DNA of 64,000 nt from Gammaproteobacteria bacterium (GTDB lineage Bacteria; Pseudomonadota; Gammaproteobacteria; HyVt-429): the NCBI GenBank assembly GCA_013152415.1, contig JAADGI010000029.1, positions 62,001-126,000 on the forward strand, written 5' to 3'. The notes beneath the pieces are model-generated. The model ran no database searches. It was not told the DNA's origin and saw nothing but the letters and a program-made list of their open reading frames with translations. Both the position numbers and the translations under genes were made by a program. This document shows, in pieces, positions 55,407-62,012 of this stretch. Within the stretch, counting starts at the first letter, position 1; every line of letters begins with the position of its first letter.

Positions 55407-55761
<355 letters not shown>

Positions 55762-55772
55762 CTTAAAGTCTA

Positions 55773-55798
55773 AAGCCGTCCTAGGACGGCTTTTTTCT
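55773..55798 (+). terminator. Rho-independent terminator of ssrA
   Basis: AAGCCGTCC pairs with GGACGGCTT across a 2-nt TA, followed by TTTTTTCTTTT. It lies 13 nt beyond the tmRNA, inside the island, so the island supplied or kept a terminator. Confidence 0.88.
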
Positions 55799-55863
55799 TT
55801 TCTGATACATAGAGTTACAAGTTTTTATTGCCCGACGCATATCATTAAGATTCATTGACATCC

Positions 55864-55894
55864 GGGGGCAACTGGGGGCAACATTAGGGGCAAG
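55864..55894 (+). repeat. Arm-like repeats, left end of island
   Basis: GGGGGCAAC at 55864 and 55874 and GGGGCAAG at 55887. The spacing is 10 and 13 nt. Matching copies occur at the right end (61916-61935). The arrangement resembles integrase arm-binding sites. Confidence 0.6.
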
Positions 55895-55906
55895 TGAGTT
55901 TCCAAG

Positions 55907-55970
55907 AAAGGAGCTGCCCCCAATGCCATTAACAGACACCACGATCTATCGAACAGCTTACTGGTGGTAA
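55907..55970 (+). pseudogene. Remnant of a tyrosine integrase gene
   Basis: A good ribosome site AAAGGAG (55907-55913) and ATG at 55923 start the peptide MPLTDTTI, which matches the N-terminus common to P4-like integrases (MPLTD-x-x-I). After about eight codons the sequence no longer fits and a stop comes at residue 16. The position beside the tmRNA end and the direction into the island are as expected for the integrase. The remainder is presumably deleted. Confidence 0.5.
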
Positions 55971-55991
55971 TGTGTCTAATTACGGCCAGTA

Positions 55992-56059
55992 GCATCGGCA
56001 ATCGGGCTGGCGGCACGACGTAAGGAGCGTCCGAACGAGCGCATTGTATGATGTTACTC
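55992..56059 (-). repeat. attC-like site 3, truncated
   Basis: It starts at GAGTAAC, overlapping the stop codon of the OLD nuclease gene, and contains GCGCT-N2-TTCGGACG-N-TC then TCG-x-GCCGCCAGC, like site 2 (57890-57956). A clear GTTRRRY end is missing, and the integrase remnant is next. A deletion may have removed the end. Confidence 0.5.
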
Positions 56060-57868
56060 TGCTACCAAGCTATGAAAATCATGGAACATTTCCGTGAATT
56101 CATACTTTACGTCCCCATTTTCAGTAAATAATTCTGCTTCGCGTATTTGGCCTGGACTCATTAAAACCCAATAATCCTCAATGACAGTAGAATGATTTGT
56201 ACCTTTCTCTACGGCTATTAAATTCTTTGCATCATCCGTATCAGTAAAAGTGAAAGTATTTCCTGCTTCAAGCGCAAGACAATCTAGGTGAATATAATTC
56301 TCTGGTTCTCTTTTTCTTGTGGTATATGCCTTAACGCCATCACCTTGAAGTTCAACGATTTTCTGATTATTTTTTTCCTCTTGCAGTGTTCCTTTATCAG
56401 AGTCGATAAGAACACAGTACGGGATGCCGAATTGTTCTGCCAATCTTAAAGTTCGCCAATGCTTTATACTGTCACATCCACCAATTGGAACTATTGCAAA
56501 ACGCTTGTCTTCAAATGTGTGGGCTAAATGACCGCCATTTTTTAATTGATTTGCGATGTGATTTACAAAAGTTACATCGCTCTTCCCCTCAACAAGTAGC
56601 AAAGCTTTTGCATTGTTTGATACTGGGTCAGGCAGTATTCCAAGCGAATCTGCTATTTTCCCAAACACTTCATCGGTTCCTGATTCTACTGTTCGGTTAT
56701 CACCATCGATATCAATAAATCTAAGGCTTTCTAGTGGGAGTAATCCAGCTAAAGCTGGTGTATGAGTCGTGAGTAATATTTGGCTACTTTCTGCAAACGA
56801 TAACTCAAGAAATGCATTGATTAGCATCTCCTGATGATCGGGATGCTGAGATGTTTCAGGCTCTTCAAAGGCGAAAATAATTTGATTGGTCTGACATTCT
56901 AATCTTCTTCTTTCTGCTTCTGCTCGAAAAAAATTAAGTAAAATTAGTCTTCTAACTCCACTCCCTCTTTTATTGATACTTATATCATTATCAGACTTGA
57001 TTGTTAGTTTAAATTGCGAATCAAACTTTGGCTCTGTTTTAAATTCTGGTATGAGCTGGCTAGCAAGTTCTGGTGACATTTCCTTTAGCTTCTCAAGCGT
57101 TCTATTTGCCGTCTCTATCGCTTTATTTCTTACTTGAGTTTTTATGTTCTCCAGCTCGACTTCAAGTTCACCGAGTGCCTGCTGAACAGCTATTTTCATA
57201 GGGTCAACAACTTCTTTATCATCATCTTTGCTTTGTCTGTCAGATTGGAACAGGGCGTATATGGGTAAATATGTCTTGATTGATTCATAAACTTTCTTGG
57301 TATCTTCCTTATCAACAAGTAATTCTGTCGTTTGAGTTTGTAGATCCCCAAGGTTTTGCCAAATCGCCTCTCTTATTGATGAGTTTAAATTGGCATTATA
57401 TGTGTCTTGATCAATTTCAAGTGTATTTGCTCGTTGGCGTAGTTCTGTTCTTTTTAGAGTTAGTAAGTCTTGCCCCTGTTCTACAGTGGGATGATCACAA
57501 ATTATGTATATCCTTTCTTTTGGTTTTGATGCTGTTGCAGGGAATACTTTTTTAATTTCTAATTTATGATCTGAGTTCAACAGATATTCATTTTGCAGAA
57601 CAGTTGGATTGGCGGCGTCAATTATTACTTCATTTGGTATATCCGTAAATATACAAGTAATCTCTATTTTATTGTTATCTGCATTAATATTTAGGTCGTC
57701 TTTCTCACAGGTGACTACAGTATTATTAAAGAAGATCTCTAAAGCCTCTAATACTGAGGATTTTCCAACATCATTTTTCCCAATGAATGCGGTCAGAGCA
57801 GTCAATTCTATAGGTGTTTCATTTTTATAGCCCCTGAAGTTCTTTAGCTTTACGCTTTCTAGTCTCAT
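56054..57868 (-). CDS. OLD-family ATP-dependent endonuclease (AAA ATPase + TOPRIM)
   Basis: 604 residues. The N-terminal ABC-type ATPase starts MRLESVKLKNFRGY and has Walker A IGKNDVGKSS (near 31-40), a helical arm (about 170-270), signature GSGVRRL, Walker B IIFAFEEPETSQHP and switch His TTHTPAL. The C-terminal TOPRIM nuclease has the Glu in LLVEGKSDV (near 427) and the D-x-D in CVLIDSDKG (near 490). This is the class 1/2 OLD layout seen in phage exclusion and in GajA of Gabija. The gene is strongly A/T-rich. The ATG at 57868 follows AGGAAG. No UvrD-like GajB is nearby. Confidence 0.9.
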   Translation of the reverse strand: MRLESVKLKNFRGYKNETPIELTALTAFIGKNDVGKSSVLEALEIFFNNTVVTCEKDDLNINADNNKIEITCIFTDIPNEVIIDAANPTVLQNEYLLNSDHKLEIKKVFPATASKPKERIYIICDHPTVEQGQDLLTLKRTELRQRANTLEIDQDTYNANLNSSIREAIWQNLGDLQTQTTELLVDKEDTKKVYESIKTYLPIYALFQSDRQSKDDDKEVVDPMKIAVQQALGELEVELENIKTQVRNKAIETANRTLEKLKEMSPELASQLIPEFKTEPKFDSQFKLTIKSDNDISINKRGSGVRRLILLNFFRAEAERRRLECQTNQIIFAFEEPETSQHPDHQEMLINAFLELSFAESSQILLTTHTPALAGLLPLESLRFIDIDGDNRTVESGTDEVFGKIADSLGILPDPVSNNAKALLLVEGKSDVTFVNHIANQLKNGGHLAHTFEDKRFAIVPIGGCDSIKHWRTLRLAEQFGIPYCVLIDSDKGTLQEEKNNQKIVELQGDGVKAYTTRKREPENYIHLDCLALEAGNTFTFTDTDDAKNLIAVEKGTNHSTVIEDYWVLMSPGQIREAELFTENGDVKYEFTEMFHDFHSLVAE

Positions 57869-57889
57869 GTGACTTCCTGTGTATTGTTC

Positions 57890-57956
57890 ATATAACGACC
57901 AAGCTGTGCGGCGTGAGCGAAGCGCAGTGAACGTCCGAATTAGCGCTTTGTTAGTT
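57890..57956 (-). repeat. attC-like site 2 between DUF2130 and OLD genes
   Basis: On the minus strand it begins AACTAAC six nt after the DUF2130 stop and ends GTTATAT 21 nt before the OLD start. Inside are AAAGCGCT-AATTCGGACG and CACGCCGCACAGCTTGGTCG, the typical order of attC inner boxes. End boxes are only partly complementary, so the site is divergent. Confidence 0.5.
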
Positions 57957-57962
57957 GCATTT

Positions 57963-59231
57963 CTAAGTGTCCAAATCGTTTTCATCAGCAGCCGGTAACT
58001 CTAGGAGAGGAACAGTTTGAACGGCATTACCAGCAATGCCTTTAATTGAGCCGTACATATCCGTAGTGTTTAGCAAAACTTTATCAATTTGTTTTTCTCT
58101 CTTTTTCCATATTCCTCTCATTGAACGCTGCTCAGATTCAAGATCCGATTTCATTTGCGTAAAACCCTCAACTATTGCTTCAATTTGTAGCTTGAATTCA
58201 TTGCTTGTAAGGAAATCATAAAGCATTCCCATTTTATCGCCTTTGTTATCCTGAGAAATTATTGCCGTGCTTATTTGAATAATTGATTCTCGTAAAACCG
58301 AACACAATGCTTTAAATTCTTCAAATGTACATATCCAGACACCATCCTTTAAACCAAGGCGCTCCATATCAGGTGGCATTACCTCTGTTACCAATACACC
58401 AATATTTGCGTTTTTATCCCGAATATCTGCCTTGAATTTCTCTATCCAAGTAGGTTGGAATGCTTTTGAACGCTTACTTTCGTAGTAAATAGTACCGCAG
58501 TTTTGTCTTGACCGTGTATGAACAATTTGAAGGCAATCAGCTCCACGCTCACCTTTTTTTATTTCCTGAATAGTGTCTAGAGGGAATTTGTTCGATAACC
58601 ATTCTTCTATACCCAATTCCTGCACTTCGCCTTGTGTTTGCATTGATCCTTGTTCTTGTTTTCTCTTCATCTCTTCAGTTAGTTTTTTTTGATCTTCCAA
58701 CTGTTTTTCGAGCTCTTTGAACTTTAATTCGTTTTTTTCATTCTCTTCTTTACGAATTTTTTCTTTTTCCTCTAGTAGCTTCTTATTGAGCTCTTTTCCA
58801 GACTCTGCCTTTATTGAGGCTTCCAGCTCATTCTTTTCTCTTTTGAGCTTTTCAAGTTCAATAGATGTTTTATAAAGTTCCTTGATTTTTCCGGATTTTT
58901 CTTCCAGTTCTTCACGCAATGATTTAAGGGCACCGGATTGCTCCTCTTCCGCTTCGGCCTTGTATTTTTTCTTTAGAGCAAGCTCTCTTTGTTTTACCTC
59001 TTCTTTAACTTGCTCCTCAATATTTTCTTTTTGCAGCTTTTTATCTGCCTCAAGTCTCTCTCGTTCTTTATCTAACTTAGTCGACTGTGCATCAATCTTT
59101 TCTTTCTCTTTAGCCAAATCATCGTTGTACTTCTTTTTAAGTTGCTCATCGACTTGGTGATACAAAATCTCATTTACGTCAATATCCTCACCACACTTAG
59201 GGCAATTTATTACGCTTTTTTCATGATTCAT
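57963..59231 (-). CDS. DUF2130 coiled-coil protein, probable nuclease
   Basis: 422 residues. An N-terminal zinc ribbon begins INCPKCGEDID; only the first cysteine pair is clear. A long Lys/Glu-rich coiled coil follows (about 30-215), then the DUF2130 domain (about 225-370). It has GADCLQIVHTR, then GTIYYESKRSK with a following WIEKFKAD helix, and VLVTEVMP. This D...E-x-K pattern fits a PD-(D/E)XK nuclease fold. Start ATG 59231 lies 16 nt after the attC-like site 1; the frame is open to 59300 through that site. A/T-rich like the OLD gene. The function is unknown; with a nuclease neighbour, defence is an inference. Confidence 0.85.
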   Translation of the reverse strand: MNHEKSVINCPKCGEDIDVNEILYHQVDEQLKKKYNDDLAKEKEKIDAQSTKLDKERERLEADKKLQKENIEEQVKEEVKQRELALKKKYKAEAEEEQSGALKSLREELEEKSGKIKELYKTSIELEKLKREKNELEASIKAESGKELNKKLLEEKEKIRKEENEKNELKFKELEKQLEDQKKLTEEMKRKQEQGSMQTQGEVQELGIEEWLSNKFPLDTIQEIKKGERGADCLQIVHTRSRQNCGTIYYESKRSKAFQPTWIEKFKADIRDKNANIGVLVTEVMPPDMERLGLKDGVWICTFEEFKALCSVLRESIIQISTAIISQDNKGDKMGMLYDFLTSNEFKLQIEAIVEGFTQMKSDLESEQRSMRGIWKKREKQIDKVLLNTTDMYGSIKGIAGNAVQTVPLLELPAADENDLDT

Positions 59232-59246
59232 AATATTCTCGATTGC

Positions 59247-59363
59247 AGCTAACACCACAATAAAACGCCAACATAAGGGGCAGCTATTTTGCGTAAACAA
59301 AATGGATGCGGTTTATGGCGGTCGGTAGGCGCGAAAGCGGCTGGCTTAATTGTCATGTTAGCT
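59247..59363 (-). repeat. attC-like site 1
   Basis: A 117-nt imperfect palindrome. The minus-strand 5' end AGCTAACA-TG-ACAATTAAGCC is complementary to the 3' end (plus strand AGCTAACA-CC-ACAATAAAACGCC). The end boxes are AGCTAAC and GTTAGCT, close to the cassette core GTTRRRY. The stop codon of the preceding gene lies in the first box and the next gene starts 16 nt after the last, as in integron gene cassettes. Confidence 0.65.
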
Positions 59364-59690
59364 GCCTGCCTTGGGTTCTTGCTTCTTGGTGTCCAACGGT
59401 GCAAACAACGCCACTGACGAAACGTAAACAAGCGATAACCCTGCTAGGGCGATGTAAACTTGAAACAAGCCGCCTAGCTTTGCGAGCAGACTTACATCAA
59501 TAGCACAAAGTATTATCACGATTGCCGTCGGCAAAGAGCTTGCTGATAGCGCCCGAACCATCAGCTCCTGAAACGTTATGCTCCTTTTAGATAGCTTGCA
59601 ATAAATAGGCAGTCCGGCAAAAGTAAAAACCGTCACAAAAACTGCGATGAGCCCAATCATTTCAGAAGTTATTGGCAGGTCGAGATTCAT
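59358..59690 (-). CDS. Small membrane protein, unknown
   Basis: 110 residues with three predicted membrane helices (about 10-30, 45-67 and 75-96) and a short polar tail KKQEPKAGS. I recognise no family. The stop codon is inside the attC-like site 1. It lies 2 nt after the preceding gene and probably forms a two-gene cassette with it. Membrane proteins of this size are frequent effectors or immunity proteins, but nothing shows that here. Confidence 0.65.
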   Translation of the reverse strand: MNLDLPITSEMIGLIAVFVTVFTFAGLPIYCKLSKRSITFQELMVRALSASSLPTAIVIILCAIDVSLLAKLGGLFQVYIALAGLSLVYVSSVALFAPLDTKKQEPKAGS

Positions 59691-59692
59691 TG

Positions 59693-60055
59693 TTAAAACC
59701 CTCCCAACAACACGACCATTGCGGCCACAAGGCTTGTGATTCCTGCCATCACCGCAGCGGAGTCCTTCAATTTCTCTAGCAGATCTAGTCTTCGCTCCTC
59801 CTCTGGCGAGGCAAGTGCTTGAACATCAATCGCCTCGGCAACATCCCTGAGCGCACGCTCACAATGCTGCGCCGCCCTCTGCAGATACTTTTTTTTTGAT
59901 GCATCATCGTCTGCCGCTATGTACTCAGCAAGATGTTTGCCTGCGTACCTCAGCTCATTGGCAGCCGCCACCGAGAACCTGCTTCCTCCTTCGAATAGCG
60001 CAATTGCACCTTCAGCCTTCAGAAAGAGCTCCTTGACTTCTTTGGGACTACGCAT
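59693..60055 (-). CDS. Small helical protein with C-terminal membrane anchor, unknown
   Basis: 120 residues. The first 95 are helical and charged (RSPKEVKELFLKAEG, KKKYLQRAAQHCERALRDVAEA), and the last 23 form one hydrophobic segment (AVMAGITSLVAAMVVLLGGF), a tail anchor. GGAGATT precedes the ATG. It is paired with the small membrane protein downstream. No family is recognised. Confidence 0.65.
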   Translation of the reverse strand: MRSPKEVKELFLKAEGAIALFEGGSRFSVAAANELRYAGKHLAEYIAADDDASKKKYLQRAAQHCERALRDVAEAIDVQALASPEEERRLDLLEKLKDSAAVMAGITSLVAAMVVLLGGF

Positions 60056-60318
60056 TGTTGAATCTCCTGTAGACTACTAGCTATTAGTAGTGGACCTAAA
60101 TGTCCAATTTGCTTTCGGTCATTTAGGGGCACTAAATTCTCTAGTTCAGTAAACCCAACGAATGACAAAGACAAAGATGAGTCAGGCCACGATAATGGTT
60201 TGATTCAAAATTGTATGCTTAGGTCTACTTTTGGTGCCATTACAACTGTCCGCATCTGATTTCAAATATCGTTCGCTAAGGGTCGGTAGCTAACACTTTC
60301 GTGTTAGATTATCACGCT
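60056..60318. other. Gap upstream of the cassette-like genes
   Basis: It contains three short inverted repeats: ACTACTA/TAGTAGT at about 60074-60092, CCTAAATG/CATTTAGG at 60095-60127, and CTAACAC-TTTC-GTGTTAG near 60290-60309 just after csrA. The first two lie upstream of the small membrane-protein gene and may be operators. None is a convincing attC site. Confidence 0.4.
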
Positions 60319-60519
60319 TCACCCGAACATCTCTTCACGCCCTTGGTTTGCCAAACGATCAGCCTGGATCTGTTCGTAGATTTCCTGACGATGCACCGGC
60401 ACTTCCCTGGGGACATCAATGCCGATGCGTACTTGTGTGCCTATAATTTCGAGTACAGTGACCTGGATGTCGTCACCGATGTTTAAGGTTTCGCCAGGGC
60501 GGCGCGTGAGAATAAGCAT
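60319..60519 (-). CDS. csrA: Carbon storage regulator CsrA/RsmA
   Basis: 66 residues. [18 protein letters not shown] and [22 protein letters not shown] carry all RNA-binding positions (Arg-44-type R in VPREVPVHR). It binds GGA motifs in mRNA leaders. The ATG at 60519 follows AAAGGAG. It lies inside the ssrA island, away from the usual alaS neighbourhood, so it is probably an accessory copy. The hairpin CTAACAC/GTGTTAG follows the stop. Confidence 0.93.
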
Positions 60520-60704
60520 AATGGACTCCTTTCCAATTGTTTTTGGATGATATTTCACACCCTTCGGCTTATCCAGTCAAGCACCTAAACGGTGTTTATC
60601 TTCGATTTTTATTGGGGATAAATATAGTACTGTGGTAATTCTAGCATTTCCACCCACTCTATATCCTCGGCCAACGGCCATGCACAGCATCTTCCTGCTC
60701 GGGT

Positions 60705-60935
60705 TCAATAGTGACAACAAAGACGTTGCTCGTGGTTGTAGCGTGCCACTAATCCTTGTATCCATTGGCCCGGGGTGAGTTCATACCAGTGGCTGCGACC
60801 TTCTATATCTTTTTCCATAAACCTTTGGACGACTAACTTCACCGGTCGGGGGAACCATTTATCCCAACGACCGGCATACACTGAGTCCAGACGTGCCCAG
60901 CCGCCTAAGGGTAATTTTCCTACTTGATGCTGACG
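60705..60935 (-). pseudogene. Gene remnant, start missing
   Basis: A 76-codon open frame with no usable start. The residues read like real protein, rich in Trp and Arg: GRWDKWFPRPVKLVVQRF, then SHWYELTPGQWIQGLVARY, stop after LCCHY. I do not recognise the family. It seems to be the C-terminus of a lost gene. Confidence 0.4.
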
Positions 60936-61042
60936 TCACCCCCAAGGCAGGAGTTGGCTATCACAGTTACGTGCCTTAACGGGCAGCTTGGTTTTGGGGT
61001 TCGGAAAGAAGACTCTGATCTCTAGAATAACCCAAAACATGC

Positions 61043-61066
61043 CCCAAACTTTGACCCAAACTTTGA
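61043..61066 (+). repeat. Perfect tandem repeat of CCCAAACTTTGA
   Basis: Two adjoining 12-bp copies, 39 nt before the ATG of the next gene, with a related CCCAAAACATG before them. This looks like a binding site for a regulator of that gene. Confidence 0.6.
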
Positions 61067-61104
61067 TCTTTTTTTATCGCCTTGATTGTATTATTGTTCT
61101 AATC

Positions 61105-61683
61105 ATGACAATAAGCTATTACAAATCACTTCGTGAAGACTACAAACCAAAGCCCTTAGAATTGAAGGCTGTATTTATAGCAGAATCTCCGCCTAGTAGC
61201 GGTCGGTATTTCTATGATCCCGAAGGTAGCCCTACAGGTGAAGTGCTATTTCGTGAGTTGCTGATTGAATCTTTGGGCCTCCGGTTCGGTCTTAAAAAGG
61301 AGGGTTTAGAAGCTTTTAGGGACAAGGGGTTTCTGCTGGTGGACGGAACCTATCAACGTATAAATAAAAACAAAAACGGAAACGACATCCCTTCTAAACA
61401 ACGAGATGTAATTCCCCTCATTCTAATTAAGACAACAGTTTTAAATGCACTCGCCAAACCCTTACATAGAAATGGATTCAATATTGTAAACTACAATAAA
61501 GCTAAAAATAGCTATGACCCCGTGTTTTTCCCAGGACGGAAGACTAAATATTTTCGAGCACAGCTCAGACCAATGCTAGAGTCTATTGGCATGGCGCCGC
61601 CAATAGAGCTAGTCGAGAAAGCTAGGATACCACTTAGCAAGCGTAGGACAGCAAAGACAGGAGGCGATAAGATTGATTGGTAA
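61105..61683 (+). CDS. Hypothetical protein, faintly uracil-DNA-glycosylase-like
   Basis: 192 residues, soluble. AVFIAESPPSSGRYFYDP near residues 21-38 recalls the water-activating loop region of the UDG superfamily (A-E-x-P-x-x-x-G), and a PGRKTKYFRAQLRPML helix follows near 150. No confirmed His motif near the end. The start ATG 61105 opens MTISYYKSL; the frame is open to 60988. A tandem 12-bp repeat stands in its leader. Function is a guess; a nucleotide-base or island-specific role is possible. Confidence 0.6.
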   Translation: MTISYYKSLREDYKPKPLELKAVFIAESPPSSGRYFYDPEGSPTGEVLFRELLIESLGLRFGLKKEGLEAFRDKGFLLVDGTYQRINKNKNGNDIPSKQRDVIPLILIKTTVLNALAKPLHRNGFNIVNYNKAKNSYDPVFFPGRKTKYFRAQLRPMLESIGMAPPIELVEKARIPLSKRRTAKTGGDKIDW

Positions 61684-61915
61684 GCTATATATTTATCATC
61701 TTTGTTTGTTATATAAACAACCTGATGTCGTGCTCTAAATACTCACGGTCGCAATGATATGCCACATGATGGCACCCCTAAATGCGGTCGATTATTTGGA
61801 ATAAAGAAGAGAATGAATGGCGCTTATTGCCAAGTTATTGTGAAGTGTAGGGCCAACATAGATTTCTTTGAGCGATAATCCCCCATTCACATTCGAGTCT
61901 GGCAGACTAAATATA

Positions 61916-61935
61916 GGGGCAACATTGGGGGCAAC
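61916..61935 (+). repeat. Arm-like repeats, right end of island
   Basis: GGGGCAAC at 61916 and GGGGGCAAC at 61927, spaced 11 nt, in the same orientation as the left-end copies. Confidence 0.6.
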
Positions 61936-61997
61936 AACGCATAAAAAGAATTAGCATTCACTTAGTTAACAGCTAGTTACCCTCATTTTTCGGTAGT

Positions 61998-62012
61998 CGC
62001 CACCTCCACCAA
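61998..62012 (+). repeat. Island attachment repeat, right copy
   Basis: CGCCACCTCCACCAA, identical to 55747-55761 at the tmRNA end. Confidence 0.85.

Follow-up and report, generated by a model that had tools for sequence, protein, structure and literature searches.

An OLD-family gene and a DUF2130 gene that probably stand as neighbouring integron cassettes in a tmRNA-linked island

We examined a 64-kb stretch of DNA (the window) from a Gammaproteobacteria bacterium of the HyVt-429 lineage (assembly GCA_013152415.1, contig JAADGI010000029.1, positions 62,001 to 126,000), in which a gene for an OLD-family ATPase with a TOPRIM nuclease domain adjoins a gene of the DUF2130 family; an earlier note had proposed that the two might form a two-component defence system. 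We consider it likely that they are two separate integron cassettes lying side by side in an array of cassettes that has no integrase (CALIN in the sense of PMC12444791) inside an island linked to a transfer-messenger RNA (tmRNA) gene, and that OLD and DUF2130 act independently. The pair would then probably be two separate genes, not one two-part machine. Their adjacency would most likely arise because each arrived as its own cassette, and they would share a direction, and possibly a transcript, because the cassettes of an array normally point one way.

attC-like sites around the two genes

The OLD and DUF2130 genes are same-strand neighbours with a gap of 94 bp, at the coordinates that the earlier note had given (Table 1). 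In gene direction this gap reads CTAACAAAGCGCTAATTCGGACG...CCGCACAGCTTGGTCGTTATATG, the layout of an integron attC site, which that note had overlooked. Sites were called with two covariance models and a weight matrix, used in place of an inverted-repeat detector and a regular expression that failed to separate true from false attC. The first model, R1, was built from six attC-like sites, none of them from the window; the second, R2, was built from 17 sequences and is diluted by two reverse-strand matches in its alignment.

Across both strands of the window R1 returns just two matches, the site upstream of DUF2130 (E-value 0.015) and the site between the two genes (0.029), and both lie on the gene strand in the gaps that flank DUF2130. 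R2 also finds the upstream site (E 4e-4 over the whole window, 4e-5 over 6.8 kb), where the + strand gives a folding z of -4.05. The weight matrix ranks the middle site first on both strands of the window, with a score of 29.3; nowhere in 2.8 Mb of control strand-bases did a site score as high. DUF2130 is thus bounded by attC on both sides, the middle one being the weaker in R2, and the two sites have no integrase gene beside them, the arrangement of a CALIN. Past the end of the OLD gene lies an attC-like remnant that matches the regular expression and has a weight-matrix score of 18.8, rank 15 in the window, which comes mainly from its 5' half.

Could the two genes instead form one two-gene cassette or operon, with the attC call between them due to chance? 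The weak R2 result on the middle site (E 0.27 over 6.8 kb) and the short, same-strand gap would fit such an arrangement. Against it stand the confinement of R1's matches in the window to the flanks of DUF2130, the unequalled weight-matrix rank of the middle site and its canonical layout of R and L arms by inspection, and we regard a single cassette as very improbable.

The rest of the genome carries integron parts. Contig C35 encodes an integron integrase (TIGR02249, 447 bits against a cut-off of 265), and R1 finds 18 matches genome-wide on many contigs, with a best E of 1.5e-11, some of them being the two strands of one site. Taken with the local attC sites, the integrase and the spread of attC over many contigs lead us to place the pair in an integrase-less array. 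Several of the genomic matches adjoin toxin-antitoxin-like genes; contigs C7, C31 and C23 (loci L233, L235 and L236) hold attC-bearing clusters with several such genes. R1 proved specific: at E <= 0.1 it gave 0 matches in plasmid and viral loci totalling 271 kb. Other loci, 275 kb in all, gave 2, of which the first directly follows an ATPase gene and the second neighbours an integron integrase.

Table 1. Features of the tmRNA-linked island, in window coordinates
Feature	Position	Strand	Description
Island at the 3' end of the tmRNA gene	55747..62012	.	15-bp direct repeat at both ends; holds the cassettes and a second csrA
attC-like remnant	55926..56059	-	Overlaps the OLD stop codon (GAGTAACATCATACAATGCGCTCGTTCGGACG...); 3' half degenerate; weight matrix and regular expression; weak
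OLD-family gene	56054..57868	-	604 amino acids; AAA_15 ABC-type ATPase and OLD-like TOPRIM; probably its own integron cassette; Class 1-like by context
attC between DUF2130 and OLD	57889..57956	-	CTAACAA ... CGTTATATG; cassette border; R1 and weight matrix; weak in R2
DUF2130 gene	57963..59231	-	422 amino acids; N-terminal CPxCG, long coiled coil, C-terminal PD-(D/E)XK-like domain; probably its own integron cassette
attC upstream of DUF2130	59246..59363	-	AGCTAACA ... GTGTTAGCTG; between DUF2130 and the preceding cassette; R1, R2 and folding
Preceding cassette(s)	59358..60055	-	Two short open reading frames, 110 and 120 amino acids, without a family match

The two proteins and their relatives elsewhere

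The OLD gene starts at the ATG of MRLESVKLKNFRGY, which gives the 604-residue protein; its frame is open upstream to 57985, where a start would overlap the DUF2130 stop. The protein matches AAA_15 (E 7e-84) and OLD-like_TOPRIM (PF20469, E 6e-11) above the Pfam cut-offs, and its ATPase motifs can be read directly (Walker A GKNDVGKSS, Walker B region FAFEEPETSQHP). The TOPRIM motifs VEGKSD and IDSD are intact, as the earlier note had reported. The sole solved relative that we found is the Class 1 OLD protein of T. scotoductus (6p74, E 7e-11), and identity to the aligned TOPRIM-bearing relatives, over the full length, is at most 43%. Class 1 OLD proteins (P2 Old, T. scotoductus OLD 6P74, E. coli YbjD/OldB) are single-gene ABC ATPases with a C-terminal TOPRIM domain (PMC10568477, PMC7049728, PMC13261556), and such single-gene proteins can have antiphage effects (PMC10568477, PMC13261556). 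The present protein likewise carries an N-terminal ABC ATPase and a C-terminal TOPRIM domain in one chain. If DUF2130 is left aside as a possible partner, it is also a single gene, with DUF2130 on one side and the tmRNA on the other; neither a UvrD helicase nor a reverse transcriptase gene was found beside it among the open reading frames of the island and their Pfam matches. Most likely, then, OLD would act alone as a Class 1 phage-defence ATPase-nuclease, its ATPase domain sensing a signal of infection and then permitting TOPRIM to cleave nucleic acid.

In a sister group of the OLD ATPase, TOPRIM is missing although the ATPase domain is retained (L047 4106-5632, L158 6495-8021, L191 6217-7773 and L192 625-2001). 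Three members of this group carry IRHQIHH, a HEPN-like R-x4-H motif, near the C-terminus, which suggests, from sequence, a swap of effector.

The DUF2130 protein matches its family (PF09903) with E 4e-74. Its nuclease motif, which the earlier note had called intact, is so: D232 and E251-x-K253 are invariant across 41 homologues. An AlphaFold2 model (mean predicted local distance difference test score 76, predicted template modelling score 0.41) consists of long helices with a C-terminal H-E-E-E-H-E core at residues 202-282 that bears the D and E-x-K residues. Foldseek returned weak matches only, the best being the restriction enzyme MspJI (E 0.04). A PD-(D/E)XK-type nuclease, a fold defined by a D...E-x-K motif on an alpha-beta-beta-beta-alpha-beta core, is the likely prediction. 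Most likely DUF2130 would be an independent coiled-coil protein with such a nuclease domain, at work in defence or in DNA processing. In the literature searched we found no published function for the family, only incidental mentions.

Relatives of each gene occur without the other. Identity to the nearest relatives of DUF2130 is 89% in Desulfobacteraceae, 86% in Thiodiazotropha and 80% in a Maribacter metagenome-assembled genome, a Spirochaetia metagenome-assembled genome and BMS3Bbin05, and the relatives in Desulfobacteraceae, Maribacter and BMS3Bbin05, which belong to unrelated phyla, have an attC-like site just past the stop codon. Of L045, L047 and L051, the loci with such a site directly 3' of the DUF2130 stop, only L047 has an OLD-kind ATPase adjoining DUF2130; L051 lacks OLD, as does L045 as far as its short contig reaches. 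R1 was trained on sites from these three loci, so that its scores there are circular and the sites rest on inspection of the sequence. L046, whose DUF2130 is 86% identical, gave no R1 match and is not counted as attC-supported; its upstream end resembles half an attC. On the ATPase side, L192 holds a near-identical copy of the L047 ATPase with a near-identical attC and no DUF2130, and at L232 (4549-8763) an AAA_15 OLD-like gene stands between attC matches, beside a C5-methyltransferase cassette and an integron integrase, again with no DUF2130. The earlier note had said that its proposal would fall if each gene occurred alone as an independent cassette with no joint phenotype; the genomic half of that is largely what L051 and L045 display for DUF2130 and L232 and L192 for OLD/AAA_15.

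Among 369 gammaproteobacterial genomes sampled, the one studied here included, DUF2130 has matches in 35 and the OLD protein in five. In a set of 30 genomes with DUF2130 relatives, only 2 hold a relative of the OLD protein at E <= 1e-20. OLD relatives without DUF2130 occur in integrons, on plasmids and on 17 viral contigs. The viral relatives came from a family alignment (19 loci), a scan of the viral sequences with the OLD protein alone having given no match, and DUF2130 accompanied none of the 17 well-matched ones in the flanking sequence covered (at most 5 kb on either side).

The neighbourhoods of DUF2130 bear on whether it is a defence gene at all. Its direct neighbours include DUF4297/HerA, TrlF and type I restriction genes, and a caspase-family gene lies nearby in one setting. 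Among 97 gammaproteobacterial neighbours the defence-family matches include mad3 (6), the AriA model (4), IetAS (3) and AAA_15 (2), counts in which one protein may match several models, and no partner dominates. DUF2130 thus looks, from sequence context, like a promiscuous defence-associated gene. It might also be a general DNA repair or processing protein with no defence role, whose place next to OLD would be incidental to cassette arrays and mobile islands. A defence match is absent from most of the sampled neighbours, at L159 and L195 DUF2130 sits among metabolic or housekeeping genes, and its coiled coil with a D...E-x-K layout presumably resembles RmuC. Many of the sampled plasmid loci and some genomic ones, however, place it among restriction-modification, IetAS, TrlF, DUF4297/HerA, Gabija-like and caspase-family genes, and its close relatives turn up at attC-bearing loci of unrelated phyla; we think a general repair or processing role outside defence rather unlikely, though the best placed of the alternatives.

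Recurrent adjacency of OLD-type ATPases and DUF2130

The earlier note would also have dropped its proposal if the pair occurred only here. It does not: an OLD/AAA_15 ATPase adjoins DUF2130 in five further unrelated settings. In L047 an ATPase without TOPRIM is followed by a DUF2130 cassette, the ATPase lying on the other side from that in the window and set off by its own attC. An ATPase without TOPRIM precedes DUF2130 in L158 (genome G352; 34-bp gap), and an OLD protein with TOPRIM does so in L163 (genome G350; 43-bp gap), with an integron integrase and an attC match nearby. On Citrobacter and Enterobacter plasmids (L197/L198) OLD and then DUF2130 are 2 bp apart, and on an Aliarcobacter plasmid (L009) DUF2130 is followed by a GajA-like and then a UvrD-like gene, with a 1-bp gap. 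In L163 the gap (about 1590-1660, - strand) includes GCGCTAACAAGAGCGATCAGGCGCTAA, which may be the relic of a collapsed attC through which two cassettes became fused. Besides the genome studied here, only G352 among the 369 has a relative of the present OLD protein next to DUF2130, the G350 protein being more distant. The L158 pair was missed with the present DUF2130 as query, its own DUF2130 being divergent, and was recovered by a search with the Pfam family.

Across unrelated genomes, then, the co-occurrence is recurrent, but it is rare and variable. By a rough estimate, and not a computed test, two adjacencies in about 34 loci are far more than random placement would give if each genome has a single DUF2130 gene among a few thousand; other defence genes would be the proper null.

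One reading of this recurrence is a true two-component module, with an OLD/AAA_15 sensor and a DUF2130 nuclease effector in the manner of AriA/AriB or GajA/GajB, brought together by integron shuffling and kept adjacent by selection. The gaps of 1-43 bp in L158, L163, L197/L198 and L009, together with L047, speak for it; a separate effector would make sense for the TOPRIM-less ATPases of L047 and L158; and co-transcription is plausible, the gap between the two genes in the window showing no promoter-like site. The arrangement is not conserved, however: it is seen at 2 of the other gammaproteobacterial loci with DUF2130 (about 34) and at 0 of 17 viral OLD loci, and only 1 of 80 close DUF2130 homologues is directly adjacent. 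Gene order varies, two divergent DUF2130 subfamilies and several groups of ATPases are involved, many other defence genes also adjoin DUF2130, and the OLD protein here has its own TOPRIM domain and is set apart by an attC. We hold such a two-component module to be improbable. The earlier proposal thus fares unevenly, gaining from adjacency in five other settings and losing from the attC between the genes and from relatives that mostly occur apart.

A looser arrangement would have DUF2130 as an interchangeable effector or helper beside varied ATPases (with TOPRIM, without TOPRIM, or Gabija), paired by integrons from separate cassettes into a defence module so far unrecognised; this, too, strikes us as doubtful. 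Joint function of OLD and DUF2130 is possible on the sequence evidence.

Several points weigh against two independent cassettes. The recurrent adjacency is not accounted for by pure independence, although clustering in defence islands may be its cause. R2 scores the middle site weakly, and past OLD there is no more than an attC remnant, called by neither R1 nor R2. We found no OLD relative above 50% identity, so that the separate history of OLD is drawn from relatives about 37-47% identical, and several comparison contigs are short metagenome-assembled pieces. We nevertheless favour two separate cassettes whose products would act independently.

Two consequences follow for work of this kind. 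Genes packed closely on one strand of a defence-like island can owe their arrangement to a cassette array and not to shared function, and a search for attC should come before a multi-gene system is claimed. DUF2130 is widespread and has essentially no literature, and its repeated defence neighbourhoods and its attC sites in unrelated phyla make it a good candidate for direct testing.

The tmRNA island and comparison with known systems

The pair lies in an A/T-rich island, as the earlier note had said (GC content 0.37-0.38 across the two genes, compared with about 0.50-0.55 in the surroundings of the island). It directly borders the tmRNA gene (55407-55760), and the tmRNA 3' end (CGCCACCTCCACCAA) is repeated as a perfect 15-bp direct repeat at 55747-55761 and 61998-62012; a start at the tmRNA 3' end with a copy at the far end is the usual signature of a tmRNA-integrated island. 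No integrase gene was seen among the open reading frames of 55.3-62.1 kb. Relatives were searched for an unoccupied tmRNA site without an informative result, the flanking EAL gene being too weakly conserved at the DNA level. Near both ends lie near-identical GGGGCAACATT(A/G)GGGGCAA repeats (55875-55893 and 61916-61934), possibly recombinase-binding or end repeats. The second csrA is at 60319-60558 (-), with a further copy on contig C16, and an open reading frame of 231 amino acids at 60988-61683 (+), on the strand opposite to the cassettes, matches no Pfam family.

Three known systems were considered and ruled out for the pair: Gabija, there being no GajB or helicase reading frame in the island; PARIS, since TOPRIM is fused and PF20469 OLD-like and no AriB (DUF4435-type) match was found; and a retron Class 3 OLD, there being no reverse transcriptase.

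Integrons are known to hold antiphage cassettes (Darracq 2025, Kieffer 2025 and Getz 2025, as cited in PMC12409362 and PMC12444791), and the setting is familiar. As in those cassettes, the candidate defence genes here would be separate, attC-bounded and in one orientation; here, by contrast, the array is small, integrase-less and within a tmRNA island. The OLD gene shares with Class 1 OLD a single gene, an ABC ATPase with C-terminal TOPRIM and the lack of a helicase or retron partner, and differs in being carried as a probable integron cassette beside another candidate defence gene. With Gabija (GajA/GajB) it shares an OLD-family nuclease, and the Gabija-like operon of Aliarcobacter has DUF2130 directly upstream, whereas here a UvrD-like GajB is missing and OLD has beside it DUF2130, probably in a cassette of its own. 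The OLD ATPase domain has its best PADLOC score with the AriA model, which recalls PARIS (AriA/AriB); unlike PARIS, the TOPRIM domain here is fused and of the OLD type, and there is no separate AriB gene.

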